A stretch of DNA of 64,000 nt from Chloroflexota bacterium (GTDB lineage: Bacteria > Chloroflexota > Dehalococcoidia > Bin125): contig VXQZ01000049.1 in NCBI GenBank assembly GCA_009838735.1, positions 1 through 64,000 on the forward strand, written 5' to 3'. Below, one piece after another: positions 3,999-51,830 of this stretch. Every line of letters begins with the position of its first letter. Within the stretch, counting starts at the first letter, position 1. Both the position numbers and the translations under genes were made by a program. The notes under the pieces are model-generated. The model was not told the origin of the DNA and did not search any database. It saw only the letters and a program-made list of their open reading frames with translations.

Positions 3999-4033
3999 GC
4001 CCTCACCCTAGCCCTCTCCCAGAGGGAGAGGGG
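3999..4033. repeat. intergenic palindromic element
   Basis: CCCTCACCCTAGCCCTCTCCC followed by AGAGGGAGAGGGGA. It sits between the DUF35 and thiolase-like genes and is another copy of the 623-680 family. Confidence 0.8.
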
Positions 4034-4044
4034 ATCGGATCCGG

Positions 4045-7665: not shown

Positions 7666-7803
7666 GATCTGGACTCCATCCCCTGAGCTCTGGTGCCTGA
7701 GAGGCATGGTACGGGCTGATCGAGCGGGCGGGTGACAGGCGCCAAGAATCACTATGATGTCGGCGATCAGGCGCGCGATGCGGCGCCCGCGGAAGGTTCC
7801 TGC

Positions 7804-9003
7804 ATGCTTGCCCGTTGTCGCACCCATCTCATGATCGCCATTGTCGTTGCGGCGGCGATTGTCGTGACCACGCTGATTAACCAGCTCATGTTCGAATCGG
7901 CCGAAGCTGATTCGCACGACCGCGTCACGACCGAGGTGCGGATCAACGCGAAGCAACTGGCCGACGGACGCGTCGAGTTCGCCCTGCAGCAGTGGGACGG
8001 CAGTCAGTGGGGCGAGCGAATCCTGCCGCGTCCCCGGCTCTTCCCGGCCAACTCTCCCGTCGATCTGTGGCGCAACAGCGGTGGGATCGAGGTCCAGACG
8101 CCCGTGCCAGCAGCGCCAATGCCCTCGCTTTGCGTGGTCGCAAACGGCGATTCCGACGAACTGTTCTGGCAGTTCGTGGAGTTCCACGCTGCACGGGCGG
8201 CCAATCTGATTGGAGTGAAGCTCGACTACTCAACCCACACCAACGTCGATGATCGAGTCGACGCGATCGAGCAATGCGTCGATGACGGCGCGAGGATGAT
8301 CCTCGCCACCCTGGCTGACGCCGACCAGATCATTCCGGCGCTGGAAGCAGCAGCAGAGCATGGCGTCCAAATCGCCAGCTTCGGAGCGGGCGAAGAGCAT
8401 GCCGACCGTGCCGGATCGCTCATCCACGTCTCGATGGACGAAGCCGCGGCCGGTCGCCGGGCAGCGGAACAGTTCAACTCGGCCGCCGTTGCCGGGCCAG
8501 TCCTGTGCGTGGTCCATCACGACGCGTATGCAGCCCGCAAGAACATCTGCACCGTGCTGGCGGAGGAGTACATCGGCGGCGATGTTGAACAGCTTCAACT
8601 CGGCGCCGAAGACGCCGACGAACAGATCGACAGCACCCTGCGTGACATCCCCGACCTGGCCGGGCTGCTCGTGCTGGAAGCCGATCTCCTGCCAGCTGCA
8701 ATCAGGGCTATCGAGGACTCGGACGACCCGCCATTCCTCGGTTCGATCGGTGAATACCCGCTGAGCAAGCTCGGGTTTGCGAAGCGGGACCTGATTCGCT
8801 TTACGGTGATGGACCTGGCGCGCTTTGAAGTGTTGCTCGCCGCAGCGGCGCTGCACTACATGTACGCCAACCATCCCAACGCCCGATTCTTCGAAGGCGC
8901 GATGATCTTTGACGGCACGCCCAACGTCCACATCGGAGGCCCGAAGGGCGGTCACGGTCGCCCTTCGACCGATGACGGCCACGGTCACGACCATGATCAC
9001 TAA
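7804..9003 (+). CDS. anchored periplasmic-binding-like protein with WGERxLP module and His-rich tail
   Basis: A 399-residue extracytoplasmic protein. Start at 7804 is supported by GGAAGG 7 nt upstream; a 24-codon extension is open but lacks a ribosome site. Residues 9-29 are an uncleaved-looking membrane anchor. Residues 45-97 are the WGERxLP module (WGERILP at 69-75). Residues 108 to about 365 are a type 1 periplasmic-binding fold (Peripla_BP_4-like) with cysteines in SLCVVANG, IEQCVDDGA, VLCVVHH and NICTVL. The last 17 residues are rich in His, Asp and Gly (GHGHDHDH end), a likely metal-binding tail. No transporter gene is adjacent; CoA-transferase genes follow. Ligand unknown; ribose-type sugar-binding proteins are the closest general fold. 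Confidence 0.85.
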   Translation: MLARCRTHLMIAIVVAAAIVVTTLINQLMFESAEADSHDRVTTEVRINAKQLADGRVEFALQQWDGSQWGERILPRPRLFPANSPVDLWRNSGGIEVQTPVPAAPMPSLCVVANGDSDELFWQFVEFHAARAANLIGVKLDYSTHTNVDDRVDAIEQCVDDGARMILATLADADQIIPALEAAAEHGVQIASFGAGEEHADRAGSLIHVSMDEAAAGRRAAEQFNSAAVAGPVLCVVHHDAYAARKNICTVLAEEYIGGDVEQLQLGAEDADEQIDSTLRDIPDLAGLLVLEADLLPAAIRAIEDSDDPPFLGSIGEYPLSKLGFAKRDLIRFTVMDLARFEVLLAAAALHYMYANHPNARFFEGAMIFDGTPNVHIGGPKGGHGRPSTDDGHGHDHDH

Positions 9004-10404: not shown

Positions 10405-11625
10405 ATGCCAGCTCTCGACGGACTCCGCGTCCTCGACATGACCCAGTATGAAGCGGGCACGTCCTGCACTCAGGCGCTGGCCTGGCATGGCGCAGACGTG
10501 GTCAAGATTGAACAGCCCGGCGTTGGCGACCCGGGTCGCGGCGTCGGCAGCGGCGACGCGATTGATTCTCACTACTTCATCAACTGGAACGCCAACAAGC
10601 GCTCGGTCACGATCAACCTGCGCGACGAGCGGGGCAAGGCGCTGCTCTTCGAGATGCTGCCCCACTATGACGTCTTCGTCGAGAACTACGGACCCGGCGT
10701 GATGGAGAAGCTGGGCCTGACCTACGAGGCGCTCAAGGAAGTTCATCCGAGCATCATCTACGCGCGACTCAAGGGATTCGGCCTCTCCGGACCGTTTGCG
10801 AACTTCAAGAGCTTCGATCCGGTCGCGCAGAACGCGGCCGGCGCGTTCTCGGTTACCGGAGAAGAAGGCGGGCCGCCGATGCGTCCCGGCGCCTGCGTTG
10901 GCGACAGCGGCACAGGGATGCAACTCGCCTTTGCCATCACGTCCGCCTACGTGCAGAAGCTGCGCACCGGCGAGGGTCAGCACATCGAGATCTCGATGCA
11001 GGAAGCGATGACCTACTACGTCCGCACTCCGGTCGCAGGGACCCAGAGCTGGGGCGACGTCGCCGCCGAGCGGCGAGGCAACGGCTGGAACGGGCCGACC
11101 GACCTGTACCCCTGCAAGCCATTGCCCGACTCCAACGGGGCGGACGACTACCTCTACATCATCGCCCTGACAACCCGCATGTGGGACACCTTCTGCGCGG
11201 CGATGGATCGTCCGGATATGGTCGTCGATCCACGCTTCGCCGACGAGCAAGCGCGGATCGACAACAACGACGCGCTCAAGGCCGAGATCCGCGCCTGGAC
11301 ATTGCAGCACACCAAGTGGGAGGCGATGCAGATCCTCGGCGAGGCCGGCGTGCCCTGCTCGGCCACGCACAGCACCTACGACCTGTTCCACAACCCCCAC
11401 TTCGAGGAGCGCGAGTTCATCCAGGACATCGACCACCCGGAGTGGGGCCCAATCCGCCTGCTCGGCTGGGCACCGAAGATGTCGAAAAGCAACGTGCCGA
11501 TGATAGCCGCGCCGCTGCTGGCGGAACACACCCGCGAAGTCCTCTGCGACGACCTCGGCATCGAAGGCGAAGAGTTCGCCAGGCTCGAGGCAGAGGGAAT
11601 CGTCAGCAGCCGCAACGGCGCCTAG
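10405..11625 (+). CDS. CaiB/BaiF family (type III) CoA-transferase, copy 2
   Basis: Paralogue of the preceding gene (same fold, same order of motifs), 406 residues. Catalytic Asp is Asp167 in VGDSGTG. It differs from copy 1 mainly around residues 48-56 and 205-230, and in His28 within the ALAWHGADV segment. The last 115 codons are close to identical at DNA level to the 3' part of the broken copy at 15898-16241. The 3' end converges on dppC with only 12 bp between stops, and the sequence across that junction is copied inside the broken gene (see 15651). Tandem orientation with copy 1 and a 115-bp gap suggest separate or shared transcription. Confidence 0.93.
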   Translation: MPALDGLRVLDMTQYEAGTSCTQALAWHGADVVKIEQPGVGDPGRGVGSGDAIDSHYFINWNANKRSVTINLRDERGKALLFEMLPHYDVFVENYGPGVMEKLGLTYEALKEVHPSIIYARLKGFGLSGPFANFKSFDPVAQNAAGAFSVTGEEGGPPMRPGACVGDSGTGMQLAFAITSAYVQKLRTGEGQHIEISMQEAMTYYVRTPVAGTQSWGDVAAERRGNGWNGPTDLYPCKPLPDSNGADDYLYIIALTTRMWDTFCAAMDRPDMVVDPRFADEQARIDNNDALKAEIRAWTLQHTKWEAMQILGEAGVPCSATHSTYDLFHNPHFEEREFIQDIDHPEWGPIRLLGWAPKMSKSNVPMIAAPLLAEHTREVLCDDLGIEGEEFARLEAEGIVSSRNGA

Positions 11626-11637: not shown

Positions 11638-12519
11638 CTAGCGCAGGTTGCGCAGCCGTGGGTCGAGGGCGTCGCGGACCCAGTCGCCCATCAGGTTGCC
11701 GGTTAGCGCGATCGTCAGCAGGGCCAGGCCGGGCAGCCAGATTGGCCACCAGGCGACGCTCATGAAGTCGCGTCCCTCCGAGATCATCACCCCCCACGAC
11801 GCCGTGCCCGGCGGCGCGCCCACGCCGAGGAAGGTGAGCGCGGCCTCGGCCAGGATCACCAGTGCGACCTCCAGCGTCATGATGATCACGATGCTGTTGA
11901 CGACGTTCGGGAACAGATGCTTCCGCAAGATCCAGGCGGGGCCCGCTCCGGTGGCGCGAGACGCCGTGACGAAGTCGCGCTGCTTGAGGGACAGCACGTC
12001 GGCCCGGACCAGCCGCGCGTACGAGGGCCAAGTCCAGATCAGCAGGATGATGATCACGTTGCGCAGGCTGGCTCCCACCAGGGCCGCCAACAGCACCGCG
12101 AAGAGGATCGCCGGCATCGCCAGCTGCACGTCCACCAGGCGCATCAGCAACTGGCCGATGAGGCCGCCCGCCCAGCCCGAGATCAGTCCCAGCAGCGTCC
12201 CGATCAGCGCCGCGCCCGGCACCACGATGCCCACCACGATCAGAGAGATGCGCGCGCCGTGCAGCAGCCGGCTGAAGATGTCCCGCCCGACCTGGTCCGT
12301 GCCCAGGGCATAGTCCCAACTGCCCCCGTCGAAGACGGGCGGCTGCAAGCGCGCGCCCAGGTTGATGAACTCCGGGTCGTGCGGCGCCAGCCAATCCGCT
12401 CCCACGCCCGCCACGAGCAGCGCCAGCGCGATCAGAGCGGGCACGGACAGCCCCAGCCAGCGCCGCCAACGGACGCCACGGCCCGGGCCCAGCTGCACCG
12501 CCGCCGGCTGGCCCGCCAT
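11638..12519 (-). CDS. dppC: oligopeptide/dipeptide-type ABC permease, DppC-like
   Basis: Inner-membrane permease of a family 5 (peptide/nickel/opine) importer. It has 293 residues with an N-terminal TM at about 22-42, then a periplasmic segment with the HPLGTDQVGRD-like ALGTDQVGRDIFSR landmark typical of DppC, four to five more TMs, and the EAA loop EAALTFLGVGAPPGTASWG. Start at 12519 overlaps the dppB stop by 1 nt (TGATG), so translation is coupled. The open frame continues upstream inside dppB but that is a shadow. The ATPases DppD and DppF are not beside it, so they must come from elsewhere. A C-terminal remnant of a second dppC copy is found at 19193. Confidence 0.93.
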   Translation of the reverse strand: MAGQPAAVQLGPGRGVRWRRWLGLSVPALIALALLVAGVGADWLAPHDPEFINLGARLQPPVFDGGSWDYALGTDQVGRDIFSRLLHGARISLIVVGIVVPGAALIGTLLGLISGWAGGLIGQLLMRLVDVQLAMPAILFAVLLAALVGASLRNVIIILLIWTWPSYARLVRADVLSLKQRDFVTASRATGAGPAWILRKHLFPNVVNSIVIIMTLEVALVILAEAALTFLGVGAPPGTASWGVMISEGRDFMSVAWWPIWLPGLALLTIALTGNLMGDWVRDALDPRLRNLR

Positions 12520-13457
12520 CAGGCGTCCCCCGCCCGGATGCGCGGGTCGATCAGCCGGTAGGACACATCGACCAGCAGGTTGACCAGCGCGATCGACGCC
12601 GCCAGCACGATGATCGAGGCCTGCACCATCGGGAAGTCGTTCTTGAAGATCGAGTCGATGATCAGGCGGCCGATGCCCGGCCACGCGAAGACCATCTCGA
12701 TGATCACCGAGCCGCCGATCAACCGGCCTAGCGAGAGTCCCAGCATCGTCACGACCGGCAGCAGCGCGTGCCGCACGGCGTGCCGCCCGATGATCACCCG
12801 CTCGCTGAGTCCCTTGGCCCGCGCCGTGCGGATGAAGTCGGTGTCCATCACCTCGATCATCCCCGAGCGGGTCAGCCGCATGATCGCGACCAGTTCGAAC
12901 AGGCCGAGTGCGATCGCCGGCAGGATCAACGAGCGGAACCCTTGTTCATCGCCCCCGGTCGGAAACCAGCCCAGCTGCACAGCGAAGAAGAAGATCATCA
13001 TCAGGCCCAGCCAGAAGCTGGGCGTGGCCTGGCCGATCACCGCCACGAAGCGCGACAGCCAGTCAATCGCCGTGCCGCGCCTCAAGGCCGCCACGATGCC
13101 CAGCGGCAGCGCCAGCGCGAGCGCGAACACCACGCCCGCCGCCCCAAGCTTGAGCGTGCTCGCCGCCCGGTCGCCGATCTCGTCGAGCGCCGGTTGGCCA
13201 CCGCCCCGCCACGAGGTCCCGAAGTCGCCTTGCGCCAGGTTGCCCAGGAACGTGCCGTACTGAACGATCAGCGGTTTGTCCAAGCCCAGATTCTTCCTCA
13301 GGCGTTCGACTTCTTCGGGACGCCGCTGCTCGGGCGAGAGCAGGGTCGACTCGGGATTGCCCGCAAGGCGCGAGACAAAGAAGACGGTCGTCGCGACGAT
13401 GAGGACGACGAACAACGCCTGGATCAGGCGGAGGGCGAAGTAGTTCCAGAAATCCAT
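12519..13457 (-). CDS. dppB: oligopeptide/dipeptide-type ABC permease, DppB-like
   Basis: Partner permease of DppC, 312 residues. Residues 10-30 form TM1, and the long periplasmic loop contains LGLDKPLIVQYGTFLGNLAQGDFG, the standard DppB landmark. Five further TMs follow, with the EAA motif region RTARAKGLSERVIIGRHAVRHALLP and the C-terminal FAWPGIGRLIIDSIFKNDFPM signature. It lies 72 bp downstream of the binding protein gene on the same strand, giving the order binding protein, dppB, dppC. The substrate could be peptides, nickel chelates or other small organics; the family cannot be split by eye. Confidence 0.94.
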   Translation of the reverse strand: MDFWNYFALRLIQALFVVLIVATTVFFVSRLAGNPESTLLSPEQRRPEEVERLRKNLGLDKPLIVQYGTFLGNLAQGDFGTSWRGGGQPALDEIGDRAASTLKLGAAGVVFALALALPLGIVAALRRGTAIDWLSRFVAVIGQATPSFWLGLMMIFFFAVQLGWFPTGGDEQGFRSLILPAIALGLFELVAIMRLTRSGMIEVMDTDFIRTARAKGLSERVIIGRHAVRHALLPVVTMLGLSLGRLIGGSVIIEMVFAWPGIGRLIIDSIFKNDFPMVQASIIVLAASIALVNLLVDVSYRLIDPRIRAGDA

Positions 13458-13529
13458 CAGGTCCCTTGCGGATCGCGCCCCGGAGCTCCGCCGACCCTAC
13501 AGGCGGCAAGTGCGCCGAGCGGCGCGGCC

Positions 13530-15488
13530 TCAGGTGGCCTTGCGTCGCTGGATGCCGTAGGCGTTGCCCCCCCACATGAAGCCGGTGCGTCCTCCCTTCG
13601 GCCAGTTGACGTCCGCCCGGGTCAGCACCGCGTCCGGGGCCTCGACGAGGAAAATGAACCACGCCTGACGGGCGTGTTCCAGCATCAGCTCCGCGATCAT
13701 CTCCTGGCGCCGCGTGGAATCGAGCTCAGTCCGCTGCGCGAGGTACAGCTCGTGCAGGGCCGGATCTATGACCCCCTCGCCGCTGAGCTTGGTGAAGAAG
13801 GACTCGGGCCCCACGCAGCAATCCCACATCGATCCGATGTCGCGGACGACGTTGGCCCACATCCAATAGAGGCCCACCGGGCGGTTGGGGCCCCCGACCA
13901 CGTAGGCGTCGGAGAAGTAGTCGGAGACGAGCGCCACCTCGGGCTGCGTGCGGATACCGACCGCAGCCAGGTCCTGCGCCACGGCCAGAGCCATATCCGA
14001 CATGAACGCGCCGCCCCAGTCGGTCGTGTAGTACAGCGGGACCTCGAACCCGTCCGCGTAACCAGCCTCCGCCATCAGTTGCTTCGCCAGCTCGGGGTCG
14101 TAGTTGTACTCGACTTCCGCCCGCTGCTCCGCGGTCGGGTAGCCGTACACGCCGCTGAACGTGAACAGTGAATAGTGCCCCTGGCCGAGCAGAAGGTTGT
14201 CGATTAAAGCTTGGCGGTTGATCGCGTGGTTCGCGGCCTGGCGCACGCGGAAGTCCAGGAACGGGTTCGGGCTACCGTCCGGCATCGTCTCGGGGTACAG
14301 GTTGGGATAGATCACCTGGACGGTCTGGCCAACGGCGGGTTGGAACTGCACGGTGAAGTCGGGGTCGTCCAGGTATGGCTCCACGTTGTTGGGGCCCAGC
14401 CCCGGCACCACGTCAATCTCCCCGGCCTCGATGCCGGCCAGCCGCGACTGGATCTCGGGCCGCACCACGACCCGCTGATGCTTGTGGTGGGCATAGCGCG
14501 GCACCACGACGGGATGGTCGGCCGGGAGGAAGTGGTCCTCGAAGCGCTCGTAGACGAAGTCCGTGTCGTCTTCGTGGCTGACGAAGCGGAACGGGCCGGT
14601 GCCCATCGGCGAGGTGTCCATCGCGAGGTCGCCGCGCGCCTCCGTGTCCGCTTGCGACATGATCACCACCTCCCCGGTCCCGGTCAGGTTGACAACGAAG
14701 AAGCCCGCATCGGGCGCCGGCAACTCGAACGACCAGGTGCGGTCGTCCACGGCCTCGTTGCGGACCCAGTTCGCGGAGCTGCGGCCGACATTCCCGGGGG
14801 TCCAGCCGCCGGGGTGATCGGTCGTCTCGCCGCCCTGGTGGTAGGCGGCCTGCCCGGCCATGCGTTCGTAGCTGAACACCAAGTCATGGGCGGTGAGGAT
14901 CGAGCCGTCGTGGAACTGCGCCGGCACCACCGACGCCCGAACCGTGACGGGATCGATCCACTCCGGCGCGGCCAGATTTGCGATCGGCGCGCCTTCAGCG
15001 GGATCCCATTCCATGGCCGCGCTGAACACGGCGCCGTGCGAGTACAGGTTCGCGTTGCTGCCGGTCCGCATCTGGTCCAGCCCCCCAGCGTCGGAGGGGA
15101 CCACCACGGTGATCGTCGCGTCCAGATCGACCTCGTCCAGCGGCCAGGGCTCCGACCATTCCTCGCTCTCGCCCGGCGTCTCGGCCACGGCGACCTGTTC
15201 CTGTTGCTCAACCGCCTCGGCCTGTTGTTGGGCCTGTTGTTGGGCCTGCTCTTGCTGCGTGGCCTGCTGCTGTTGCTGTTGGACCTGCTCCTGCTGCATC
15301 GCCTGTTGCTGCTGTTGCTGCTGTTCCTGAGCCTGCGCTGCCGATGGCTGTGCATCGTCGTCATCGTCGCCGCAGCCGACCAATGCCAAACCACTCGCGC
15401 CGACGCCGGCTCGCGCCGAGGCCCGCAAGAGCGACCGCCTCGACATCCTGCTACGGCGCATCCGCTGCCAATAGTTTCGTTTGCTCAC
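13530..15488 (-). CDS. family 5 ABC substrate-binding lipoprotein, Tat-exported, with Gln-rich linker
   Basis: Captures the substrate for the DppBC permeases. The 652-residue chain has a Tat signal (SRRSLLRAS at 16-24, twin Arg 17-18) ending in lipobox ALVGC with Cys39, followed by an Asp cluster. Residues 47-94 are almost pure Gln/Ala/Glu, a spacer of about 48 residues encoded by CTG/TTG-rich repeats on the opposite strand. Then comes the SBP family 5 domain (residues about 115-640), with landmarks such as DLDATITVVVPSDAG, DGSILTAHDLVFSYERM, LDFRVRQAANHAINRQALID and YNYDPELAKQLMAEAGY. Export by Tat implies folding in the cytoplasm, sometimes seen with cofactor-loaded proteins. Gene order with dppB and dppC supports the role. 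The coupling of Tat, lipid anchor and Gln linker is unusual. Confidence 0.93.
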   Translation of the reverse strand: MSKRNYWQRMRRSRMSRRSLLRASARAGVGASGLALVGCGDDDDDAQPSAAQAQEQQQQQQQAMQQEQVQQQQQQATQQEQAQQQAQQQAEAVEQQEQVAVAETPGESEEWSEPWPLDEVDLDATITVVVPSDAGGLDQMRTGSNANLYSHGAVFSAAMEWDPAEGAPIANLAAPEWIDPVTVRASVVPAQFHDGSILTAHDLVFSYERMAGQAAYHQGGETTDHPGGWTPGNVGRSSANWVRNEAVDDRTWSFELPAPDAGFFVVNLTGTGEVVIMSQADTEARGDLAMDTSPMGTGPFRFVSHEDDTDFVYERFEDHFLPADHPVVVPRYAHHKHQRVVVRPEIQSRLAGIEAGEIDVVPGLGPNNVEPYLDDPDFTVQFQPAVGQTVQVIYPNLYPETMPDGSPNPFLDFRVRQAANHAINRQALIDNLLLGQGHYSLFTFSGVYGYPTAEQRAEVEYNYDPELAKQLMAEAGYADGFEVPLYYTTDWGGAFMSDMALAVAQDLAAVGIRTQPEVALVSDYFSDAYVVGGPNRPVGLYWMWANVVRDIGSMWDCCVGPESFFTKLSGEGVIDPALHELYLAQRTELDSTRRQEMIAELMLEHARQAWFIFLVEAPDAVLTRADVNWPKGGRTGFMWGGNAYGIQRRKAT

Positions 15489-15650
15489 TGGAGTACTCCA
15501 TCCCTGTCAAACCGCGCCTCTAGCGTGAAGCAGCGTATCGTGGTAAATGGCTAACTTCTGAGCCGTGAATTGTCAAGCGGCCTCACCGCTCGAAGCTGCG
15601 GATTGCCGTTCCCTACGCCAGGGGCAGTTCGCTTGCGGAAGGATCAGACG

Positions 15651-16241
15651 ATGCCGGCTCTTGATGGAATGCGCGTCTTGGATATGACCCAATACGAGGC
15701 GGGCACGTCCTGCACGCAGGCGCTGGCCTGGCTTGGCGCGGATGTGGTCAAGGTCGAGCAGCCCGGTGTGGGCGACCCCGGGCGCGGCGTCGAGGAGAAT
15801 GGTCTTCGTGTCCTGGCGAACATGGACCTCACCCACGCGGCCGCTGGTTGGGTCGTCGGCTAGCGCAGGTTGCGCGGGCGCGGATGGAGGGGAGGTACGC
15901 TCAAAGCCGAGATTCGCGCCTGGACATTGCAGCACACCAAGTGGGAGGCGATGCAGATCCTCGGCGAGGCCGGCGTCCCCTGCTCGACCACGCACAGCAC
16001 CTACGACCTGTTCCACAACCCTCACTTCGACGAACGTGAGTTCATCCAGGACATCGACCACCCCGAGTGGGGCCCCATCCGCCTGCTCGGCTGGGCGCCG
16101 AAGATGTCGAAGAGCAACGTCCCGATGACAGCCGCCCCGCTGCTGGCCGAGCACACGCGCGAAGTGTTGTGTGACGACCTCGGCATCGAGGGCGAGGAGT
16201 TTGCTCGGCTCGAATCGGAGGGCATCGTCAGCAGCCGTTAG
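15651..16241 (+). pseudogene. CaiB/BaiF CoA-transferase, internally deleted copy
   Basis: The first 51 codons (15651-15803) match the start of the neighbouring CoA-transferases, from MPALDG through [11 protein letters not shown]. From about 15898 to 16241 the sequence matches their last 115 codons (KAEIRAWTLQHTKWEAM to the SSR end). The middle of roughly 230 codons, including the catalytic GDSGTG Asp, is missing. In its place lie about 95 bp with a TAG stop. Part of that insert (TCGGCTAGCGCAGGTTGCGC, near 15856) closely matches the junction between CoA-transferase copy 2 and dppC at 11630-11652. The gene is therefore a product of recombination between repeated copies, not simple point decay. 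A ribosome site (GGAAGGA) is still present. Confidence 0.9.
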
Positions 16242-16529: not shown

Positions 16530-18950
16530 GTGCGCCGAACATTCCGTCTGATCCGCACTGGCAGGGCCACAACGCTGGTTCTTTTCGTAGCTGCCGTAGC
16601 AACTGCGCTCGTGAGCATCGCGTTGGTCTCCGAAGTGGGCGCGCATCCGCCGGCCGAGGGCCCATCCATCCGCGTCTCAGCACTCAAAGGCGAAGACGGG
16701 CGGGTGACCGTTGGCGTTCAGGTGCTCGAGGAGGATGGTCGGTGGGGCGAGCGGCTGCTGCCGACAAGGCGTGTCATCTCGGCTAGCTCTCGGGCCAATA
16801 CCTGGCTGCGCAGTTCGCCGGTCACTATTGACGGCGGTAACGAACTGAGGCCGCTCTTCTGTGTGGTGGCGCATGGCGGAACTGACGACCACTTCTGGAT
16901 GAAGTTCCGTTCCTTCCTCTACCAGGCAGCCGATCGGAGCGCTAGCAATCTACGCTTCGAGACTCACTTGCAGGCCGATGACCAGGTAGCCGCCATTGAA
17001 CGCTGTGTCTCAGATGGCGCGGCCGTCATTGCCTCGACTCTGGCGAGTCCTGACGATGTCCGGGAACCTCTGATGCAGGCCAAGGCCGCCGGGACGCAAG
17101 TAATCACCTTCAACGCCGGTGTCGAGCACGCCAAGAGCGTCGGCTCAGAAATCCATATCGCGCTCAACGACCACGCTGCGGGGGAACTGGCAGGACAGCA
17201 GTTCAATGAGCGCGGCATCACCGGCCAAGTCGCCTGCCTGATCCATGAGCGAGACAACCTCAGCCTCGAACATCGCTGCGACGGACTCGAGGCCTCCTAC
17301 CAGGGCGCTGGCGTCATGCGGATTCGTCTCGAGGAAGTCGACTCTCATCTCGAGCACGATCATGGCAGCTACGTCGACGATCTGGCCGAGGTGCTCATTG
17401 AGGATCAGCAAGGGATCAAGTACGGCGCCCTGCTCACGTTGAACGCCGACACGCTGACGCATGCATTGACCGCCGTTCAACAACTCGACGGCGCTGCGGA
17501 CGGATTGGTCATCGCCTCGGTGGGATTCAACGTCGATGATCTCGCGGAGATCCCCACGGATTTGCTCGATCTGCACCTTGGATCGCTGATTAGCGACAGC
17601 GCTGATGCGCAGGGGTTCTTCGTTGGCAGCGCGCTGCAGCTTTCTTACAACTTGCACAATGCCCATGTCATCGGGCAGCCCCAGTTGTGGCTGGCCGATC
17701 CTTCCCTCCTTGACCATCACACCGTTGGTGGCAACGCTGAAACACTCGAAGCCCTTTCCGCCTCACTCGATCGGATCATCGAGCAATACTCCACGTCGCG
17801 GCGTCCTGCACCAGGTGTCAGGGTCCGCGTGGCCGCGCTCAAGCGCGACGACGGCTCGGTCGCCTTCGCGATCGAGTCGATGGGGGCCGAGGGTCGTTGG
17901 AGCAGCCGACAGTTGCCGCAGCGTCGCGTCCTCTCCACAGATGCGCCCACCGGGGCCTGGTCAGCGAGTTCAGCGGTCGAGTTGTCGAGCGCCGCCGAAC
18001 AGGCGCCTCTCTTCTGTGTGGTCACGCACGGCTCCAAGGAGGACCGATACTGGCAGGTCGCACGCGCATACATGCACGTCTCAGCCCACGTCACGAACAC
18101 CAACTGGCGCTACGAAGCCCATCTTGACGGCGCCGACCAGGCCGCGGCCATCGACCAGTGCAGCGCCGACGGCGCCGTCGTCATCGCCTCCACTCTCGCC
18201 GATCCCGAGGCGGTGACCGACTCACTGCTTGCCGCCAAACAGGCAGGCGCTCGGATTGTGACCTTCAACTCCGGCGGCGACTACGCCGCCGCCGCTGGCT
18301 CCGAGATCCACGTCGCATTGGACGACCGTGAAGCGGGCGCTGCGGCCGGGCGTGTCATCAACGAGCACGACATCAGCGGACCGATCGCCTGCATCTTCCA
18401 TGAAACCGGCAACGTTGGCCTGGAAGAACGCTGCGAGGGTCTGGAGGCTACTTATCAGGGCGGGAGCGTGAGTCGGCTGCAACTCACCGAGGGAGCGACA
18501 GACGAGCAGGTAATCGACGAGCTCGTCAATGCCTTGACGGATCCCGAGCGACCGGCGATTGAACTGGTACTCACCCTCAACGCCAATACCCTATTCGGCG
18601 CGTTGGACGCAGTCAGTCAAATCCACGCCGAAGGCGGTCGGACGATACAGGTCGTCCCGATCGGTACGCACGTCGAGCTGATACGTCGCTCTACTCCAGA
18701 GACGAGAGCGCGTCACCGGCTAGCGGGGTTTAACGACAGTGTCGAGTCGCAGGGATTCCTCGTCGTCAGCGCGATGCACTTCGTCCACCATCATCCCACG
18801 CCACCCGCATTCATCGACAGACCGCAGCTTTGGCTAGCCTCTCCGTTTGCCTTTGATACCAGACGGGCGGGCAGGGATCCGGCCGCCTCCAGAAGGTCCA
18901 CTGCGACACTCAATCGGTACGTGGAAGAAGCCGCCGCAGACGACAAGTAA
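16530..18950 (+). CDS. two-unit anchored periplasmic-binding-like protein (copy A)
   Basis: About 806 residues. GTG at 16530 is preferred because GGGGA lies 6 nt upstream; TTG at 16515 is the alternative. Residues 12-36 form a membrane anchor or signal ending near AHPPAEGP. Two units follow. Unit 1: WGERxLP module 46-101, binding domain 108 to about 415. Unit 2: module 430-486 (degenerate core WSSRQLP), binding domain 493-806. Each domain has the same landmarks: LFCVV.HG, an ERC or DQC segment followed by DGA.VIASTLA, TFN(A/S)G, and a (C)LIHE..N.(S/G)LE.RC(D/E)GLEA.Y motif, with four cysteines per unit (unit 1: 111, 159, 236, 250). The fold resembles type 1 sugar-binding proteins. No transporter is adjacent. 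It is a tandem duplicate of the gene at 19629. Confidence 0.85.
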   Translation: MRRTFRLIRTGRATTLVLFVAAVATALVSIALVSEVGAHPPAEGPSIRVSALKGEDGRVTVGVQVLEEDGRWGERLLPTRRVISASSRANTWLRSSPVTIDGGNELRPLFCVVAHGGTDDHFWMKFRSFLYQAADRSASNLRFETHLQADDQVAAIERCVSDGAAVIASTLASPDDVREPLMQAKAAGTQVITFNAGVEHAKSVGSEIHIALNDHAAGELAGQQFNERGITGQVACLIHERDNLSLEHRCDGLEASYQGAGVMRIRLEEVDSHLEHDHGSYVDDLAEVLIEDQQGIKYGALLTLNADTLTHALTAVQQLDGAADGLVIASVGFNVDDLAEIPTDLLDLHLGSLISDSADAQGFFVGSALQLSYNLHNAHVIGQPQLWLADPSLLDHHTVGGNAETLEALSASLDRIIEQYSTSRRPAPGVRVRVAALKRDDGSVAFAIESMGAEGRWSSRQLPQRRVLSTDAPTGAWSASSAVELSSAAEQAPLFCVVTHGSKEDRYWQVARAYMHVSAHVTNTNWRYEAHLDGADQAAAIDQCSADGAVVIASTLADPEAVTDSLLAAKQAGARIVTFNSGGDYAAAAGSEIHVALDDREAGAAAGRVINEHDISGPIACIFHETGNVGLEERCEGLEATYQGGSVSRLQLTEGATDEQVIDELVNALTDPERPAIELVLTLNANTLFGALDAVSQIHAEGGRTIQVVPIGTHVELIRRSTPETRARHRLAGFNDSVESQGFLVVSAMHFVHHHPTPPAFIDRPQLWLASPFAFDTRRAGRDPAASRRSTATLNRYVEEAAADDK

Positions 18951-18962
18951 GGATTGCATCTT

Positions 18963-18983
18963 CCGGCGCCAATGGGGCGCCGG
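18963..18983 (+). terminator. GC-rich hairpin after copy A binding protein
   Basis: Perfect 8-bp stem CCGGCGCC/GGCGCCGG (18963-18970 with 18976-18983), 13 nt past the stop. There is no T-run. A related but weaker structure follows the paralogue at 22073-22115, including the hairpin CGGCATCGGATGCCG, showing that the 3' flank was duplicated with the gene. Confidence 0.5.
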
Positions 18984-19192
18984 TGATGCGGCATCGGGCG
19001 CCGCTTTCACTCAGCATCGTCGCTGGATCGGAGCTGCGTCCGTGTATCTCCGTCTAACTGCTGGGAGCCCTGCAGCGCGGGCACGGCGCGGAGGTCGACA
19101 GATCGAGCGGACGATCGAAGGTAATCCCGCGCAGGAGTTGAGCAACGTGCTTCTGCTGGCCAGTAGAAGCTGAGCCGTGCTCGGGTACCGGT

Positions 19193-19250
19193 TGTGAGGC
19201 GCGGGTCGAGGGCGTCTCGCTCCCAGTCGGCCATCAAACTGGCCGTCGCA
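19193..19250 (-). pseudogene. dppC 3' remnant
   Basis: On the minus strand this encodes SLMADWERDALDPRL, matching the end of the intact DppC (NLMGDWVRDALDPRLRNLR at 11638-11700). DNA identity is evident across GGGTCGAGGGCGTC. No upstream part of dppC remains. It marks a second, now lost, copy of the importer operon between the two large binding proteins. Confidence 0.75.
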
Positions 19251-19628
19251 TGGTCTCGGCGTGGCCAGCCGCGGCCGCCCGGGCGGCCTCCGGGCGACGC
19301 GTATCGGTACCCTCGCCTCGGACTCTGTTTGCCTCCAGGGCGGGAGAAGCGGCGTTGCCAAGGAACCAGATCAGGTTTGCATGTGAAGTGCACGATCAGG
19401 GTCTGCGATCAATACGAATGACACACACCAATCTGGTTAGGCTACTTCGCTGAGTGAGCCCGTTTAGGGAGCAGAGAGGCCCAGGAGCCGTCACACACCA
19501 ATCATTGGCCACTGGGCGATGGCGCCAACCAACGCAAAATGATTCCGACCTTGCTACCGGCCTCGCTATTCGATGATCGCCGCTCTCTCAGAAAAGCTCA
19601 CGCGCACCCTAGGTAGACAGGGGATCGT

Positions 19629-22061
19629 ATGACTACAGGCAAGCCCGAATACATCCGTATGAGCCGAACGCAAGCTTGGGTGACGATTGCATTGGGACTG
19701 GTCATCGCATTCACGACCCTTGCCAGCCTCTCGCTTGTCAACGTTGCCAAGGCGCATCCGCCTGCTGAAGGCCCATCTGTCCGTATTTCTGCGCTCAAAG
19801 GCGATGGCGGTACAGTAACGGTCGCCATCCAGGTGATGGGACCGGACGGCACCTGGGGTGAGCGGCTGCTCCCGGCCAAGAGCCTCCTGACAACTACCTC
19901 CCCCTACGACACCTGGCTGCGTAGTGACGCGGTCAGCATTGATCGCGGCCGCGATCTGTCGCCGCTGTTCTGTGTAGTCGCGCATGGCGCACCCGACGAT
20001 AGCTTCTGGCTGAAGTTCCGTGCCTTCCTCTACCAATCTGCCAACCTGACCGACAGCGATATACGCTTCGAGACGCACTTGAGCGGCGCCGACCAAGCCG
20101 CTGCGATCGAGCGCTGCATCGCCGACAATGCTGCGATGATCGCCTCGACCATGGCAAGTCCCGCCGACGTTAGCGGGCCACTGATCAGGGCCAAGGCAGA
20201 AGGCGCTCGGATTGTCACCTTCAACGCCGGGCTTGAGCACGCCGAGAGCGTAGGCTCACAGGCCAACATCGGACTCAACGACCGAGCGGCCGGCGAACTG
20301 GCGGCGCGCGAATTCAATCAGCGCGGCATTAGCGGTCAGATCGTCTGCCTCATCCACGAACGAGACAACCTCAGTCTCGAAGATCGGTGCGACGGGCTTG
20401 AAGCCGTCTACGGGGGCGCTGGTGTGACCCGAATTCGGCTTGAGGAAGCAGCGAACGACCTTGAGCATGGTTCAACCAGTCGCATCGATAGGATTGCCAG
20501 CCTGCTCGGAGGTACAGAGGGGCCGCCGTACGACGCTGTGCTCGCGCTGAACGCAGACACATTGCGGCAAACGCTCGCCGCAGTGAGTCGATTGGACGGC
20601 GCCGCCGAAGGACTGCGAATCACCGCGGTTGGCGCAACGTTCGATGACTTGGTCGGATTCCCCGAGGCGTTGCTCGAACAGCACGTCGATGTGCTGATCA
20701 GCGACAGCGTTGAAACTCAGGGCTTCTTCGTCGCGAGTGCGATGGAGCTGATCTACAACGTGCACAATGGCAGATTCGCCAGCCAGCCACAGCTATGGCT
20801 AGCTCAACCCTCGCTCATTCGCTACCAAACTGCCCGCGAGAACACCGACGAGTTCGAGTCCATTTCGGCCTCGCTCGAGCGGTTGATCGAACAGTCCCGC
20901 ACGACGGAGCGCCAAGCAGTCCAGGGCGATGTCCGGGTCGCTGCCTTCCAACGACTCGATGGCTCGATCGTCTTCGCGATCGAGTCGTTGGGAGCTGACG
21001 GCCGATGGATCAGACAAGACCTGGGCCCACGGCGCGTCTTACATGTCGATGCGCCCACCGGCCGTTGGTTGTCGACCTCGGCGGTTAAGCTGTCGAGTCC
21101 CTCTGAACACGCCCCGCTCTTCTGCGTGGTCACGCATGGTTCGAAGCAGGACTACTACTGGAAAGTATGGCGCGCCTACATGCACCTGGCCGGCCACCTC
21201 GCCGATAGCAACTTCCGCTATGAGTCGCATCTCGACGGCGCTGATCAAGCAGCGGCCATCGACCAGTGCAGCGCTGACGGCGCCGCTGTGATCGCCTCCA
21301 CGCTGGCGGATCCAGAGGCGGTGACGGATTCCTTGCTGGCCGCCAAGCGGGCTGGGGCTCGAATTGTCACCTTCAACTCCGGCGACCGGCACGCCGCCGC
21401 TGCCGGCTCCGAAATCCACGTCGCCCTGGACGACCGCGAGGTCGGTCCCATCGCGACGCGCCGAATCGCTGAGGAAGGCATCACAGGGCCGATCGCGTGC
21501 ATCATCCACGAGGACGGCAATGACGGGCTGGAGGAACGCTGTGACAGTCTGGAGCAGTCCTACACGGGAGCGAGCGTCATCCGACTGAGACTGACTGAAG
21601 GTGCGACGAACGCACAGATTGTCGACGAGCTCATCACTGCCCTGACTGATCCTCGGCATGTCGACATTGAACTCGCGATGGTGCTCAATGCCGACACGAT
21701 GCTCAATGCTCTTGATGCGTTCGATCAAATTTTCACCGCGTCCGGGCGCAGTATCAGAATCCTGTCCATCGGAGCAACTGTCGATCTTGCACGGGTGAGC
21801 CTGGACATCAGGAACCGCCACCTCAGGGCGCTCTTCAACGATAGTGTCGAGTCGCAGGGTTACCTGGTCATGAGCGCGATGCAGTTCGTCCACAACTACC
21901 ACACTCCGGCCGAGCTCGTTGGCAGTCCTCAGCTCTGGATGGCTTCTCCATACCTCCTCGACTCAGCCAAAGCCCGCGCTGCTGTGACTGCGGAGGAACT
22001 GCGCTGGCTGATCACGACCCAGCGGCGGTATGTGGCCGAGGCCGCGGCAGACGACGAGTAA
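19629..22061 (+). CDS. two-unit anchored periplasmic-binding-like protein (copy B)
   Basis: 810 residues, paralogue of the protein at 16530. Residues 15-40 form an anchor followed by AKAHPPAEGPSVR, nearly the same as copy A. Unit 1: module 51-104 with WGERLLP, binding domain from 113. Unit 2: module around 434-490 with a decayed core (RWIRQDLGPRR), then a second binding domain to the C-terminus. The four-cysteine pattern is kept in each unit. By eye the two paralogues agree at more than half of positions, with unit 1 aligning with unit 1 and unit 2 with unit 2. The two-unit layout therefore predates the gene duplication. AGGGGA lies just before the ATG; ATG at 19659 is an alternative start. 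A CoA-transferase follows. Confidence 0.85.
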   Translation: MTTGKPEYIRMSRTQAWVTIALGLVIAFTTLASLSLVNVAKAHPPAEGPSVRISALKGDGGTVTVAIQVMGPDGTWGERLLPAKSLLTTTSPYDTWLRSDAVSIDRGRDLSPLFCVVAHGAPDDSFWLKFRAFLYQSANLTDSDIRFETHLSGADQAAAIERCIADNAAMIASTMASPADVSGPLIRAKAEGARIVTFNAGLEHAESVGSQANIGLNDRAAGELAAREFNQRGISGQIVCLIHERDNLSLEDRCDGLEAVYGGAGVTRIRLEEAANDLEHGSTSRIDRIASLLGGTEGPPYDAVLALNADTLRQTLAAVSRLDGAAEGLRITAVGATFDDLVGFPEALLEQHVDVLISDSVETQGFFVASAMELIYNVHNGRFASQPQLWLAQPSLIRYQTARENTDEFESISASLERLIEQSRTTERQAVQGDVRVAAFQRLDGSIVFAIESLGADGRWIRQDLGPRRVLHVDAPTGRWLSTSAVKLSSPSEHAPLFCVVTHGSKQDYYWKVWRAYMHLAGHLADSNFRYESHLDGADQAAAIDQCSADGAAVIASTLADPEAVTDSLLAAKRAGARIVTFNSGDRHAAAAGSEIHVALDDREVGPIATRRIAEEGITGPIACIIHEDGNDGLEERCDSLEQSYTGASVIRLRLTEGATNAQIVDELITALTDPRHVDIELAMVLNADTMLNALDAFDQIFTASGRSIRILSIGATVDLARVSLDIRNRHLRALFNDSVESQGYLVMSAMQFVHNYHTPAELVGSPQLWMASPYLLDSAKARAAVTAEELRWLITTQRRYVAEAAADDE

Positions 22062-22243
22062 GGCTTGCAGCTGCCGGCGCCAACCAGGCGCCCGTGGTAC
22101 GGCATCGGATGCCGCTCTCACTCGGCTTCTTCGCGGAGTGGGAGCGGCGTCCGCGCGTTTCGATCTAAGATGCAGGAGACTTGGGGGTAGGCGCTGCGGC
22201 TCGGATACCGTTGCCGAACCTGCTCTTGATGGAGGATCTGACG

Positions 22244-23476
22244 ATGCCGGCTCTTGATGGAATGCGCGTCCTGGACATGACTCAGTACGAGGCGGGGACT
22301 TCCTGCACTCAGGCGCTGGCCTGGCTTGGGGCGGATGTGGTCAAGGTGGAGCAGCCCGGCGTCGGCGACCCCGGGCGCGGCGTGCGCACGGGCACACTCA
22401 ACTCGCCCTACTTCATCAACTGGAACTCCAACAAGCGCTCGGTCACGATCAACCTGCAGGATCCCAAGGGCCGCGAGTTGCTGCTCGAGATGCTGCCCCA
22501 CTACGACGTCTTCGTCGAGAACTACGGCCCCGGCGTGATGGAGCGGCTCAACCTGACCTACGAGGTGATGAAGAAGATCAACCCGGCGATCATCTACGGG
22601 CGACTCAAGGGCTTCGGCCTGTCCGGTCCCTGGCAGGACTTCAAGTGCTACGACATGGTCGCCCAGGCGGCCGCCGGCGCGTTCTCGGTGACCGGCGAGA
22701 AGGACGGACCGCCGATGATGCCGGGCTCGACCGTCGGCGACTCCGGCACCGGCACGGAACTGGCGCTGGCGATCACCGCGGCCTTCGTCCAGCGCCAACG
22801 AACCGGCGAGGGCCAGTTCATCGAGATCACGATGCAGGAGGCGATGACCTACTTCATGCGTACCCGCATCGCCTATGCGCAGTGGGGCGAGCGGGTCGCG
22901 CCGCGCAACGGCAACGCGGCCGGCGCACCGACCAACCTCTACCCTTGCAAGTCCACGCCCGGAAGCGAGGAGCGCGGCGGCGACAACGAGTGGGTCTACA
23001 TCATGGTCGTGACCTCGCGGATGTGGGACACGCTCTGCGCCACGATCGACCGTCCCGAGCTGCTGCTCGACCCGCGCTTCGAGGATATGTGGAAGCGCAA
23101 CGAGAACGGCGACGAGCTCTACGCCGAAATCTCGAAGTGGACCAAGACACGGACCAAGTGGGAAGTGATGGAGATCCTGGGCGAGGCCGGCGTGCCCTGC
23201 TCGGCGGTGCTCGACACATACGACCTGTTCCACAACCCACACTTCGAGGAGCGAGGCTTCGTCCACGACCTCGACCATCCCGCGCATGGCAAGATCCGTC
23301 TGCTCGGCTGGGCGCCGCGGATGTCGAAGAGCGACGTGCCGATCGTCCGAGCCCCGCTGCTAGGAGAGCACACCAGCCAGGTGCTCAGCGACGACCTCGG
23401 CCTCAGCGCCGGAGACCTCCAGGAAATGGAAGCCGCCGGCATCATTGGAGGCGAACCGGTCTTCCCGGCGAAGTAG
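22244..23476 (+). CDS. CaiB/BaiF family (type III) CoA-transferase, copy 3
   Basis: 410 residues, with the same opening as copies 1 and 2 and the catalytic Asp166 in VGDSGTG. Start at 22244 is supported by GGAGGA 8 nt upstream; the in-frame extension to 22181 is not needed. It differs most in the central and C-terminal parts (for example MKKINPAIIYGR and an acidic EERGGDNEW loop near 245), so it is likely specialised for another acyl group. It lies after the second two-unit binding protein, mirroring the arrangement of the broken copy before the first one. A cluster of palindromic repeats follows its stop codon. Confidence 0.93.
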   Translation: MPALDGMRVLDMTQYEAGTSCTQALAWLGADVVKVEQPGVGDPGRGVRTGTLNSPYFINWNSNKRSVTINLQDPKGRELLLEMLPHYDVFVENYGPGVMERLNLTYEVMKKINPAIIYGRLKGFGLSGPWQDFKCYDMVAQAAAGAFSVTGEKDGPPMMPGSTVGDSGTGTELALAITAAFVQRQRTGEGQFIEITMQEAMTYFMRTRIAYAQWGERVAPRNGNAAGAPTNLYPCKSTPGSEERGGDNEWVYIMVVTSRMWDTLCATIDRPELLLDPRFEDMWKRNENGDELYAEISKWTKTRTKWEVMEILGEAGVPCSAVLDTYDLFHNPHFEERGFVHDLDHPAHGKIRLLGWAPRMSKSDVPIVRAPLLGEHTSQVLSDDLGLSAGDLQEMEAAGIIGGEPVFPAK

Positions 23477-28946: not shown

Positions 28947-28980
28947 GAGGTGGCTCCTCTGTCTGTGCAACCCTGGATGG

Positions 28981-48377: not shown

Positions 48378-50009
48378 TCAGTTGTCGCCGTCCCCAGCGT
48401 CATCTCCTGAATCGCCACTGTCGGATCCATCGTGCTCCGCGCTATCACTGCCGGTCAGATAGCGCTCCTTGATTTCCGGGGGGATCAGCCCGCTCAGCAC
48501 GCGTTGCATCTGTTCGGCATCGGCGATCTGCGGTTCGATCAGCATCGCCATCCCGTTGAACAGCGTGACCGGATCGAGTCTCATGCGCTCGATCAGCAAC
48601 GCGCCCATGACGCCCAAGTAGGTCTGGACCAGCGGGTGGTCGTAGATGGCGAACATGATCTTGCCTTCCTCAACCCACTTGGCGAAGCCGAGGTTGAACC
48701 CGAAGGTGGCCAGCGGAACCTCGGGGTCGGGCCACTGCGCCCGGAGGACGGCGGAGCCGACAGAATCGGAGAGTGCCATCACGGCGCCGATGTCGCCCTG
48801 GGCGTACCGTTCGAGCACTGCCTCGGCGGCGTCCCGGCCTTCGTGGCTCCAGGTCTCGACTTCTCCGTTGGCGTAGGTCGCCGCGAGACCGTCACAGCGC
48901 TCCTGCAGACCGATGTTGTTGGCCTCGTGAATGACGCACAGGATCGTGCCCTCGGTGCCTTCACGGTTGAACTGTTGACCGGCGACCTCACCGGCGCGGC
49001 GATCGTCGAGGCCGATGTGGAAGCTGGTGCCAACATCAGCGGCGGCGTGGACGCCGGAGTTGAAGGACATGACCGGGATGCCGGCCGCCTTCGCCTCTGC
49101 AATCGCTGGCGCCAGATCCTCCGGCGAAACCAACGTGGTCGCAATCGAGACGGCGCCGTCCTCGACGCACTGCCGAATCGCATCGGCCTGGTCTGAAACC
49201 TGACTGAACGACTGAGCGCGCACGTTGATGCCGAGGGCTGCCCCAGCAATGATCGCGGAGTCGGAAGCCTGACCCCAGAAGAAGTCCTGTCCGCCGTGGC
49301 TGATCACGCAGAACAGATCGTCGCCGGCGGGCAGCTGCGGGTCGATGGGCTCGAACCAGTAATGGACCCAGGTCCAGCCGAGATCGGGGTTGTTGAGCAA
49401 CACGTGGTCGCGAGCGAAGACGGCCGTCTCGAGTATATGGTTCGAGGTGGCCAAGATCTGCGAGATTTCGCCGGCCAGCAGGCGACGCTCCACCTCATCG
49501 GCGACCGCGTTGTAGTCGTCCGACTCGATCACATCGACGCCGGCTGGGAACGTCTCGCCGATCCCGTCGCACAACGCGCCCAGTGTGGCTTCTGAAGGAT
49601 TGACCAGGCAGAGTACCGGGGCGAGCGATTCGAGGTCGTCATCAGAATGGAATCGGCCAACGAAGTACTGCCCGTACAACCGACCGACTTCAACCAGATA
49701 GTTCTGATATTCGGTGGCGATGAACTCGGCCCGGGTGACGAGATCGAACACGACTGGAGAGCTGTATTTCACCTTCCCGACCTCTGTCTCGGGGAGCAGG
49801 AAGCGACGCTCTGGCTTCTTCGTCTCGCCCCACTCTCCGTCGTCACCGCGCTGCTGCAAGCCAATCTCGACACTGCCGTCCTGGAGCCGCTCGACCGAGA
49901 CACGAACTTCGAACTCCTCGTCTTCGCCATTCCGGTCCACGGCCCAGACTCCGCCCAGCGCCGCCGCTCCGATCAGCGTGCCGAGCAGAAGAACAATCAA
50001 TGTCCGCAT
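48378..50009 (-). CDS. anchored binding-like protein with WGERxLP-type module and half-domain remnant
   Basis: 543 residues. Residues 3-22 are the membrane anchor (LIVLLLGTLIGAAALGGVW). Residues 35-88 are the module (core WGETKKP). Residues 131-200 (PVLCLVNPSEATLGALCDGI and following) match the second lobe of the binding domain found later in the same protein (TILCVIHEANNIGLQERCDGL). Residues 232 to about 505 are a complete binding domain (LFCVISHGGQDFFWGQ, IRQCVEDGA, SIATTLVSPED, MSFNSG). Thus the first unit has lost its first lobe. The C-terminal 26 residues are Asp, Gly and Ser rich. Paralogue of the next gene upstream. No transporter is adjacent. Confidence 0.85.
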   Translation of the reverse strand: MRTLIVLLLGTLIGAAALGGVWAVDRNGEDEEFEVRVSVERLQDGSVEIGLQQRGDDGEWGETKKPERRFLLPETEVGKVKYSSPVVFDLVTRAEFIATEYQNYLVEVGRLYGQYFVGRFHSDDDLESLAPVLCLVNPSEATLGALCDGIGETFPAGVDVIESDDYNAVADEVERRLLAGEISQILATSNHILETAVFARDHVLLNNPDLGWTWVHYWFEPIDPQLPAGDDLFCVISHGGQDFFWGQASDSAIIAGAALGINVRAQSFSQVSDQADAIRQCVEDGAVSIATTLVSPEDLAPAIAEAKAAGIPVMSFNSGVHAAADVGTSFHIGLDDRRAGEVAGQQFNREGTEGTILCVIHEANNIGLQERCDGLAATYANGEVETWSHEGRDAAEAVLERYAQGDIGAVMALSDSVGSAVLRAQWPDPEVPLATFGFNLGFAKWVEEGKIMFAIYDHPLVQTYLGVMGALLIERMRLDPVTLFNGMAMLIEPQIADAEQMQRVLSGLIPPEIKERYLTGSDSAEHDGSDSGDSGDDAGDGDN

Positions 50010-50116: not shown

Positions 50117-51652
50117 CTATTCCTGCCATTCGGTCAGGGAATCGAGCAAGGCCTGCATTTCTTCGGCGTTGACGATCGTCGGCGTGATGAGCATCTGGGC
50201 GCTGTTGAAGTAGGACATCGGATCGATCCGCAGGCGCTCGGTCAACAATGCGCCGACGGCGGCCAGGTAGGACTGGATCTCGGGATGGTCGAAGATGGCG
50301 AACATGAGCCTCCCGTCGGCGACGTACTCGGCGACGGTCCGGCTGAAACCGAACGTCGCGCCCTTCACGTTGAGCCGCGAATCGAAGATGGCGCTGCGGA
50401 TCTCGACGCCGATCGACGACGACAGACCGAGCACAGCGCTGACGTCACCTTCATCTAGTCGCGCGTGCAACTCCTCGACCGTGGTGTCACGATCGGTCAT
50501 GCTCCAGCGTTCGACAGTCCCGTTGAAGCTCTCCGTGAGCCCGTCGCAGCGGTCGTGGAGTCCCTGGTTTTCCGGCTCATGGATGACGCAGAGCACGTTG
50601 CCCTCAATGCCCCGTCGGTTGAACTCCTCGCCAGCCACGCGGCCGGCCACAAGATCGTCAAGCGAAATGTGCAGGGCGGTGCCCACCTCGGCGGCATCTT
50701 CAGCGCCCGAGTTGTAGGAGATTACGGGAATGCCCGCGGCGATTGCATGGCGGACCGCCGGTTGCATTGCTTCGGGATCGGCGAGGGTGGTGGCGATGGC
50801 GACCGCGCCGTCGGCTACGCAGCGTCGGACGGCATCGGCCTGCGCGGCGCTGTTGGTGTAGACCTCGTTGCGCACGTTGATTCCGAGCATGCCGGCGGCG
50901 GCGACAGACGACTCGGCCGCCAGGCCCCAGAACAGGTCTTCGTCGCTGCCGTGACTAATCACGCAATGCAAATTGTTCGGCGGGGGCAGATGCGGATCAA
51001 TCAGCTCGATCCAGTAGCTCCAGGGAATGAATCGGCGGGTCGCCTCGCGCGCCTCGTCGACGATGTTGGCAGTGGGCACGCTTGTGGCGAAGAGTGCCCC
51101 GAGTTCCCGATCTTCCAACAGCCTCGTTTCCAACTCGACTCGGAAGTCGTCGTAGTCGCTGACCTCCCAGCGCTCGACTTCGCCACCGTAGGTTGACTCG
51201 ATGCCGTCGCAGTAACTGCCAAATCCGGGATCATTGAGGTCATTGACGCAGAGCATCCTGGGAAGGTCCCCGGCGCCACCAAGTCGCTCGTGGAAGCGCA
51301 GGGCCGATTCTTGTCCGGAGGCGAAGAGATATTCCGCGTAGGCACCCGCGACGGTCTCGTAACGGCTGTCCGTATCGACGATCACGACGGAACTGTGCAA
51401 CGGGCGGTCAGCCCGGGCACCGGCGAGCAGGAAGCGATGCTCCGGCCGGAGCGTCTCGCCCCATTCGCCACTCACTTCGCGCTGCTGCAGCCCAACCTCG
51501 ACATCTCCGCTGGCGTGGCGCTCAACGATGATGCGTACGTCGACGGCGCCATCGGGATCGTCGGGAGTGTTGGCCACATTCGCCCAAACCGCCCCCAGTG
51601 TCGCGGCGCCCAGGATGAACCCCAATGCGACCCAGATGAGATTTCGCATCAT
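50117..51652 (-). CDS. anchored binding-like protein with WGERxLP-type module and half-domain remnant (paralogue)
   Basis: 511 residues from ATG 51652, preferred because GAAAGG lies 6-7 nt upstream; a GTG at 51658 is also in frame. Residues 5-25 form the anchor and residues 38-92 the module (core WGETLRP). Residues 131-205 are the leftover second lobe (RMLCVNDLNDPGFGSYCDGI), and residues 227-511 a full binding domain (LHCVISHGSDEDLFWG, VRRCVADGA, AIATTLADPEA, ISYNSG, VLCVIHEPENQGLHDRCDGL). Same architecture as the 48378 protein, without the acidic tail. The pair lies in tandem, with a 107-bp gap. Ligand unknown. Confidence 0.85.
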   Translation of the reverse strand: MMRNLIWVALGFILGAATLGAVWANVANTPDDPDGAVDVRIIVERHASGDVEVGLQQREVSGEWGETLRPEHRFLLAGARADRPLHSSVVIVDTDSRYETVAGAYAEYLFASGQESALRFHERLGGAGDLPRMLCVNDLNDPGFGSYCDGIESTYGGEVERWEVSDYDDFRVELETRLLEDRELGALFATSVPTANIVDEAREATRRFIPWSYWIELIDPHLPPPNNLHCVISHGSDEDLFWGLAAESSVAAAGMLGINVRNEVYTNSAAQADAVRRCVADGAVAIATTLADPEAMQPAVRHAIAAGIPVISYNSGAEDAAEVGTALHISLDDLVAGRVAGEEFNRRGIEGNVLCVIHEPENQGLHDRCDGLTESFNGTVERWSMTDRDTTVEELHARLDEGDVSAVLGLSSSIGVEIRSAIFDSRLNVKGATFGFSRTVAEYVADGRLMFAIFDHPEIQSYLAAVGALLTERLRIDPMSYFNSAQMLITPTIVNAEEMQALLDSLTEWQE

Positions 51653-51830
51653 ATTCACCTTTCGTTACGTCGAGTAGTTCGACGCATCCGTATCGTACCG
51701 AGAACGATCGGCGTGCAGAATCGAGTACTGCGGTCCGGATTCACGGCCAATCTGATGTTCCCTGGTGCGAGTGGTCGATCAACGACCGGGAGCGCTTATC
51801 CTGCCGACGGCGCAATCGGGCAATCAGTTC

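Follow-up and report, generated by a model that had tools for sequence, protein, structure and literature searches.

Two adjacent genes in a Chloroflexota genome each encode two fused substrate-binding units and have no transporter of matching type beside them, which raises the question of what such orphan binding proteins do. The genes lie in the 64,000-nucleotide stretch analysed here (the window; contig VXQZ01000049.1, positions 1 to 64,000). A reading of the sequence alone had described two paralogues of 806 and 810 residues, each consisting of two repeats of a module followed by a type 1 binding domain, and the open reading frames, Pfam matches and a profile of the 54-residue module all agree with this description. 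The two genes, hereafter the doubles, are organized as follows:

16530..18950, + strand: double 1, 806 aa; signal-like segment, leader module, binding domain, leader module, binding domain
16668..16829, + strand: leader module, unit 1 of double 1 (profile match E 1.1e-23)
16848..17744, + strand: type 1 binding domain, unit 1 of double 1
17823..17984, + strand: leader module, unit 2 of double 1 (profile match E 3.0e-23)
18006..18890, + strand: type 1 binding domain, unit 2 of double 1
19629..22061, + strand: double 2, 810 aa; architecture as in double 1, to which it is 60% identical
19779..19940, + strand: leader module, unit 1 of double 2 (profile match E 4.1e-20)
19962..20855, + strand: type 1 binding domain, unit 1 of double 2 (AlphaFold2 model)
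20931..21092, + strand: leader module, unit 2 of double 2 (profile match E 7.3e-19)
21114..21995, + strand: type 1 binding domain, unit 2 of double 2 (match to PDB entry 4RU1, Z 27.3 over 283 residues)

Double 1 starts with GTG at 16530, an alternative in-frame TTG being present at 16515. Each unit was said to carry cysteines at four equivalent places; this is true of all four units, which contain no others, the complete sets being 111, 159, 236, 250, 496, 544, 621 and 635 in double 1 and 115, 163, 240, 254, 499, 547, 624 and 638 in double 2. Identity between the doubles is 60% for units 1 and 63% for units 2, whereas unit 1 and unit 2 share only 39%–43%, and therefore the internal doubling predates the duplication of the gene. 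A two-unit protein is also encoded in five other genomes (60%–62% identity), and dN/dS values of the doubles are 0.16–0.31. An assembly artefact was ruled out as the source of the two-unit gene by the two copies here and the five other assemblies.

Both doubles contain two Peripla_BP_4 domains (E 4.7e-34 and 4.1e-30) and score 118.5 and 105.6 bits, well above the Pfam gathering score of 35.1. AlphaFold-type models had been suggested as a check of disulfide geometry, with a different fold as a refuting outcome, and the type 1 fold was confirmed: the AlphaFold2 model of the 810-residue protein, built from 37 sequences, comprises two type 1 folds with pLDDT mostly 80–97 in both domains, while the linkers and modules are of low confidence. 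The best PDB match, 4RU1, is also the closest solved structure by sequence (E 2.7e-43). This CUT2-family substrate-binding protein (SBP), ACEI_1806 of Acidothermus cellulolyticus, resembles the doubles in its C-lobe cysteine pair, FW motif, and pocket N and R, but it is a single domain without the leader module and without the N-lobe cysteine pair.

The absence of a sugar-type ABC permease or ATPase nearby, noted in the sequence-only reading, was borne out, since the OppABC cluster, the only ABC importer there, is of the peptide type. The genome, 3.15 Mb in size and 96.6% complete, encodes 14 Peripla_BP_4 units, of which two belong to its sole CUT2 operon, with a BPD_transp_2 permease and an ATPase, located on contig C13 and thus on another contig than the doubles. 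The remaining 12 units form 10 orphan open reading frames, two of them doubles, and the leader module is present in all 10. Further orphans in the window are the following:

7732..9003, + strand: single-unit orphan with leader module (PF13407 5.4e-16), directly upstream of a CoA-transferase gene (9060)
48378..50009, - strand: orphan with leader module, an extra lone C-lobe-like segment (E 0.012) and a full binding domain (PF13407 1.1e-24)
50117..51658, - strand: tandem paralogue of the preceding orphan, alike in architecture (PF13407 9e-23; segment E 4.1e-5)

The extra C-lobe-like segment of the last of these outscores all 1000 shuffles. Adjacent orphan pairs sized like that at 48378-51658 recur in most genomes of the genus.

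A search of relatives for linked transporters left the orphan status standing across 15 genomes of the genus: any BPD_transp_2 permease detected on the contig of an orphan lay more than 20 kb from it, some contigs being short. The CUT2 operon was present in all 15, and in G012 (88% complete, 290 contigs) the operon pair was the only representative. Across the class, the subfamily occurs in 16 of 294 genomes, one of the 16 being outside the genus, and the transporter-linked type is found in every one of them; four other genomes of the same taxonomic family have neither orphans nor the transporter-linked type. The relatives are Dehalococcoidia/Chloroflexi MAGs, and their hosts are presumably sponges, as we take from isolate names. 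A search of the literature on SBPs of sponge SAR202 gave no match.

The four cysteines, put forward as a mark of the tandem protein, proved to be more widely distributed: one pair is subfamily-wide and the other is common to all orphans, whether they have one unit or two. The pair equivalent to 236/250 was found in 57 of 57 aligned units, transporter-linked relatives included, as well as in 4RU1, and is by this distribution an old feature of the whole subfamily. The pair equivalent to 111/159 was present in 50 of 50 orphan rows of the alignment, which include a few repeats of one unit, versus none of the seven operon rows. In the AlphaFold2 model, the 111/159-type pair links the start of strand 1 to the end of helix 2, and the 236/250-type pair links a strand to the next helix at the start of the C-lobe; by this topology, disulfides are plausible for both. 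Four cysteines in every orphan row, recurrence of the two-unit protein in five genomes and the dN/dS values indicate that the cysteine pattern and the architecture are not due to chance.

For orphans and operon SBPs alike, the best NCBIfam model was that of the rhizopine catabolism SBP (NF052284, 1.1e-37), yet the doubles score 129.8 and 115.3 bits versus a curated cut-off of 420, and no rhizopine genes were recognised beside the genes examined. Pocket positions were assigned by the CUT2 motif, as inferred from the RbsB family (811 numbering). In the N-lobe, H120, D125, F/Y127, W128, N200, G202, and R254 are kept in the doubles and, a few other orphans excepted, throughout the subfamily; continued selection for ligand binding is therefore probable. 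In the C-lobe of operon members and 4RU1, position 337 is mostly D or E (G in some) and positions 361-362 are mostly Q (4RU1 itself retains the equivalents of D337 and Q361/Q362), unlike the doubles with G337, D361, and S362. The C-lobe residues also differ between unit 1 and unit 2, each set being largely fixed across species, which suggests two related but different ligands. The doubles probably still bind ligand, with a specificity that is altered and unlike between the units, and a sugar or cyclitol is predicted from pocket residues that are conserved in part.

The doubles are located between two family III CoA-transferase genes, with the following features around them:

10405..11625, + strand: family III CoA-transferase, upstream flank (PF02515 6.8e-103; synteny)
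11638..15488, - strand: OppC, OppB, and SBP_bac_5 genes, between the upstream CoA-transferase and double 1
15632..16237, + strand: CoA-transferase gene remnant of which the 5' and 3' parts are left (two intact copies are ~90% identical to it in DNA)
19190..19300, - strand: oppC remnant (3' end), between the doubles (72% DNA identity to 11646-11759)
22181..23476, + strand: family III CoA-transferase, downstream flank (PF02515 2.2e-107)

The downstream CoA-transferase has an orthologue, 90%–99% identical, in 14 other genomes of the genus. One double lies between the same two CoA-transferase genes in G004, G010, and G013, and a double adjoins the downstream one in G003. Two or more tandem single-unit genes occupy the locus in G002 and G011, and no binding protein gene was found between the flanking CoA-transferases in G001, G005, G006, G008, and G014; the double of G001 is located elsewhere. 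In the phylogenetic tree, units 1 and 2 of the doubles form sister clades (98/96) that adjoin the single-unit genes of G002, G008, G009, and G011, which indicates a single origin of the doubles by fusion or duplication of units. At the CoA-transferase locus, tandem units turned into one two-unit gene, which is present here twice. The Opp cluster, not found at the equivalent place in syntenic relatives, together with the gutted CoA-transferase copy and the oppC remnant, shows further local duplication in the window. Reading frames are interrupted in two relatives, the double of G013 (L058) by an in-frame TAG and a single-unit orphan of G011 (L076/L094) by an in-frame TAA, through either sequencing error or decay. 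A general functional link between binding proteins and CoA-transferases was considered and held to be weak: with 70–99 CoA-transferase-like candidates per genome, such adjacency is partly expected, and the locus itself is conserved.

Other parts of the window contain a gene whose 943-aa product includes a complete animal haem peroxidase domain (32034-34865, + strand, E 7.7e-158), found here in a bacterial genome, and five luciferase-like monooxygenase genes, several of them mutually paralogous (30610-39243 and 55253-56311). Direct repeats of ~78 bases occur in or near an open reading frame without a Pfam match (40689-41052), and repeats of 35–50 bases, in both orientations, are found mostly at gene ends (617-669, 3994-4035, 23509-23582, 28975-29016, and 58668-58774).

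The doubles begin with a hydrophobic stretch that has a conserved A/V-x-A/S site at its end, before HP, as for a cleaved signal peptide; the (-3,-1) positions before HP fit in all doubles with a readable N-terminus, and no lipobox was found in their N-termini. Of the proposed tandem fusion on a single anchor, the fusion stands, while the N-terminus, which resembles a cleavable signal peptide, does not support the anchor. The operon binding proteins look membrane-tethered, by a lipobox or a hydrophobic segment, and the orphans not obviously so. Since cultured SAR202 cells are monoderm (PMC10444878) and peptidoglycan genes are missing from the genomes of sponge SAR202 (PMC6306507), an anchorless protein needs some other means of retention, for which the leader module is the obvious candidate.

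The leader module is about 54 residues long and occurs in 9–44 copies per genome of the genus. Across the phylum it was found in 3 of 301 genomes, and the sole one of these outside the genus (G101, contigs C9 and C11) has it in two frames of ~880–890 aa. None of 59 copies gave a Pfam match of note. The module was modelled as a hairpin (pLDDT 80), for which Foldseek returned no match under E 0.7, the weak partial matches above this value being to enolases and others. In the orphans, it comes after the hydrophobic N-terminus, and it also precedes Cu/Zn-SOD, RCC1, PKD, cadherin-like, and Liv-type proteins. One such Cu/Zn superoxide dismutase, with the module at its N-terminus, is encoded in the window (708-1463, - strand, Sod_Cu 1.4e-31). 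A Peripla_BP_6 protein with the leader module and without a lipobox (L056, 7768-9219, - strand) adjoins a Liv transporter, and its neighbours are Liv-type binding proteins with a lipobox. At least seven further genomes of the genus have modules and Liv-type permease pairs a few kb apart on one contig, and the module can therefore occur in a transport context. It is best read as a promiscuous extracellular module without prior description.

The transporter-linked subfamily with one cysteine pair is ancestral, and paralogues beside it have the leader module and the second pair, without a linked permease. As the best explanation, we tentatively propose a genus-specific expansion of exported binding proteins of the rhizopine/inositol type, which would bind their ligands at the cell surface and probably pass them in trans to the lone CUT2 transporter. 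Secretion of the doubles would involve a cleaved signal peptide, the leader module would hold the proteins in the monoderm envelope, two disulfides per domain would stabilise it outside the cell, and the ligand-bound orphans would deliver to the single unlinked CUT2 permease-ATPase of the genome, the two units of the doubles probably binding two related, different ligands. Docking of orphans on the CUT2 permease is predicted from co-occurrence. A precedent for such numerous orphan SBPs is provided by the TTT/Bug proteins (PMC5994714), which show similar lineage-specific multiplication with very few membrane components; they belong to another protein family, and the passages of that source concerning them mention neither a leader module nor tandem fusion. 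Against feeding in trans are S362 and G337 in the doubles, versus Q362 and D/E337, which fit a new ligand or a lost transport role, and the tethered appearance of the operon SBPs, not obvious in the orphans.

Alternatively, the doubles could capture ligands at the surface without any transporter, as a sink, adhesin, or competition device in which two units provide avidity or dual specificity, the ligands being host- or seawater-derived, free or as glycoconjugate end groups. We consider this less likely: the lack of a linked permease in 15 genomes and of a lipobox in the doubles, the leader module on other extracellular proteins (adhesion-type, RCC1, PKD, cadherin-like, Cu/Zn-SOD), and the sponge hosts suggested by the isolate names of related MAGs are all consistent with it, but the conserved pocket is typical of binding proteins for soluble ligands and the CUT2 operon is always there too. 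Somewhat less likely still is a transporter-independent surface system of sponge symbionts, in which the leader module would display tandem SBPs of two specificities that capture or sequester host ligands. The independence from transport suggested earlier is weakened by the same-subfamily CUT2 operon in all these genomes and by the leader module on a Liv-linked binding protein. Avidity, sensing and ligand storage, put forward in the sequence-only reading, are conjectural for the doubles. Feeding in trans is thus modestly favoured over transporter-free capture, because the operon is invariably present and the pocket is kept, and only modestly, because descent from operon SBPs explains the co-occurrence equally well.

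A sensory role, with ligand-bound doubles signalling to a histidine kinase or chemoreceptor, is very unlikely. The type 1 fold is used in this way elsewhere, as the sensor component in XylFII-LytS (XylFII-LytSN was among the PDB matches), but no kinase, response regulator, or chemoreceptor was found beside the doubles or at the conserved locus, the sole kinase/regulator-like pair seen close to an orphan (C37) has two genes of the opposite strand between it and that orphan, and cultured SAR202 cells are non-motile (PMC10444878). Least probable, and already disfavoured, is that the doubles are locally duplicating or decaying paralogues of little function, since the caiB and oppC remnants, the in-frame stops in the G013 double and the G011 single-unit gene, and the empty locus in some species are outweighed by the dN/dS values and by the cysteines and pocket residues conserved in six full-length copies.

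Among known systems, GlnPQ (PMC8025302, PMC11331510) likewise has two covalently linked binding domains of differing specificity, but these are fused to the membrane domain of the transporter; the doubles are of the type 1 fold and have a module before each unit, and no permease domain was found in their open reading frames, which sets them apart from a GlnPQ-type fusion. They represent a clean case of orphan SBPs multiplying around one conserved transporter. The putative second disulfide, the leader module, and the tandem fusion are markers separating orphans from transport-linked relatives, and they make the general question of the role of orphan SBPs directly testable. The findings also point to a promiscuous extracellular module, so far undescribed, in sponge symbionts that are abundant and for the most part uncultured.
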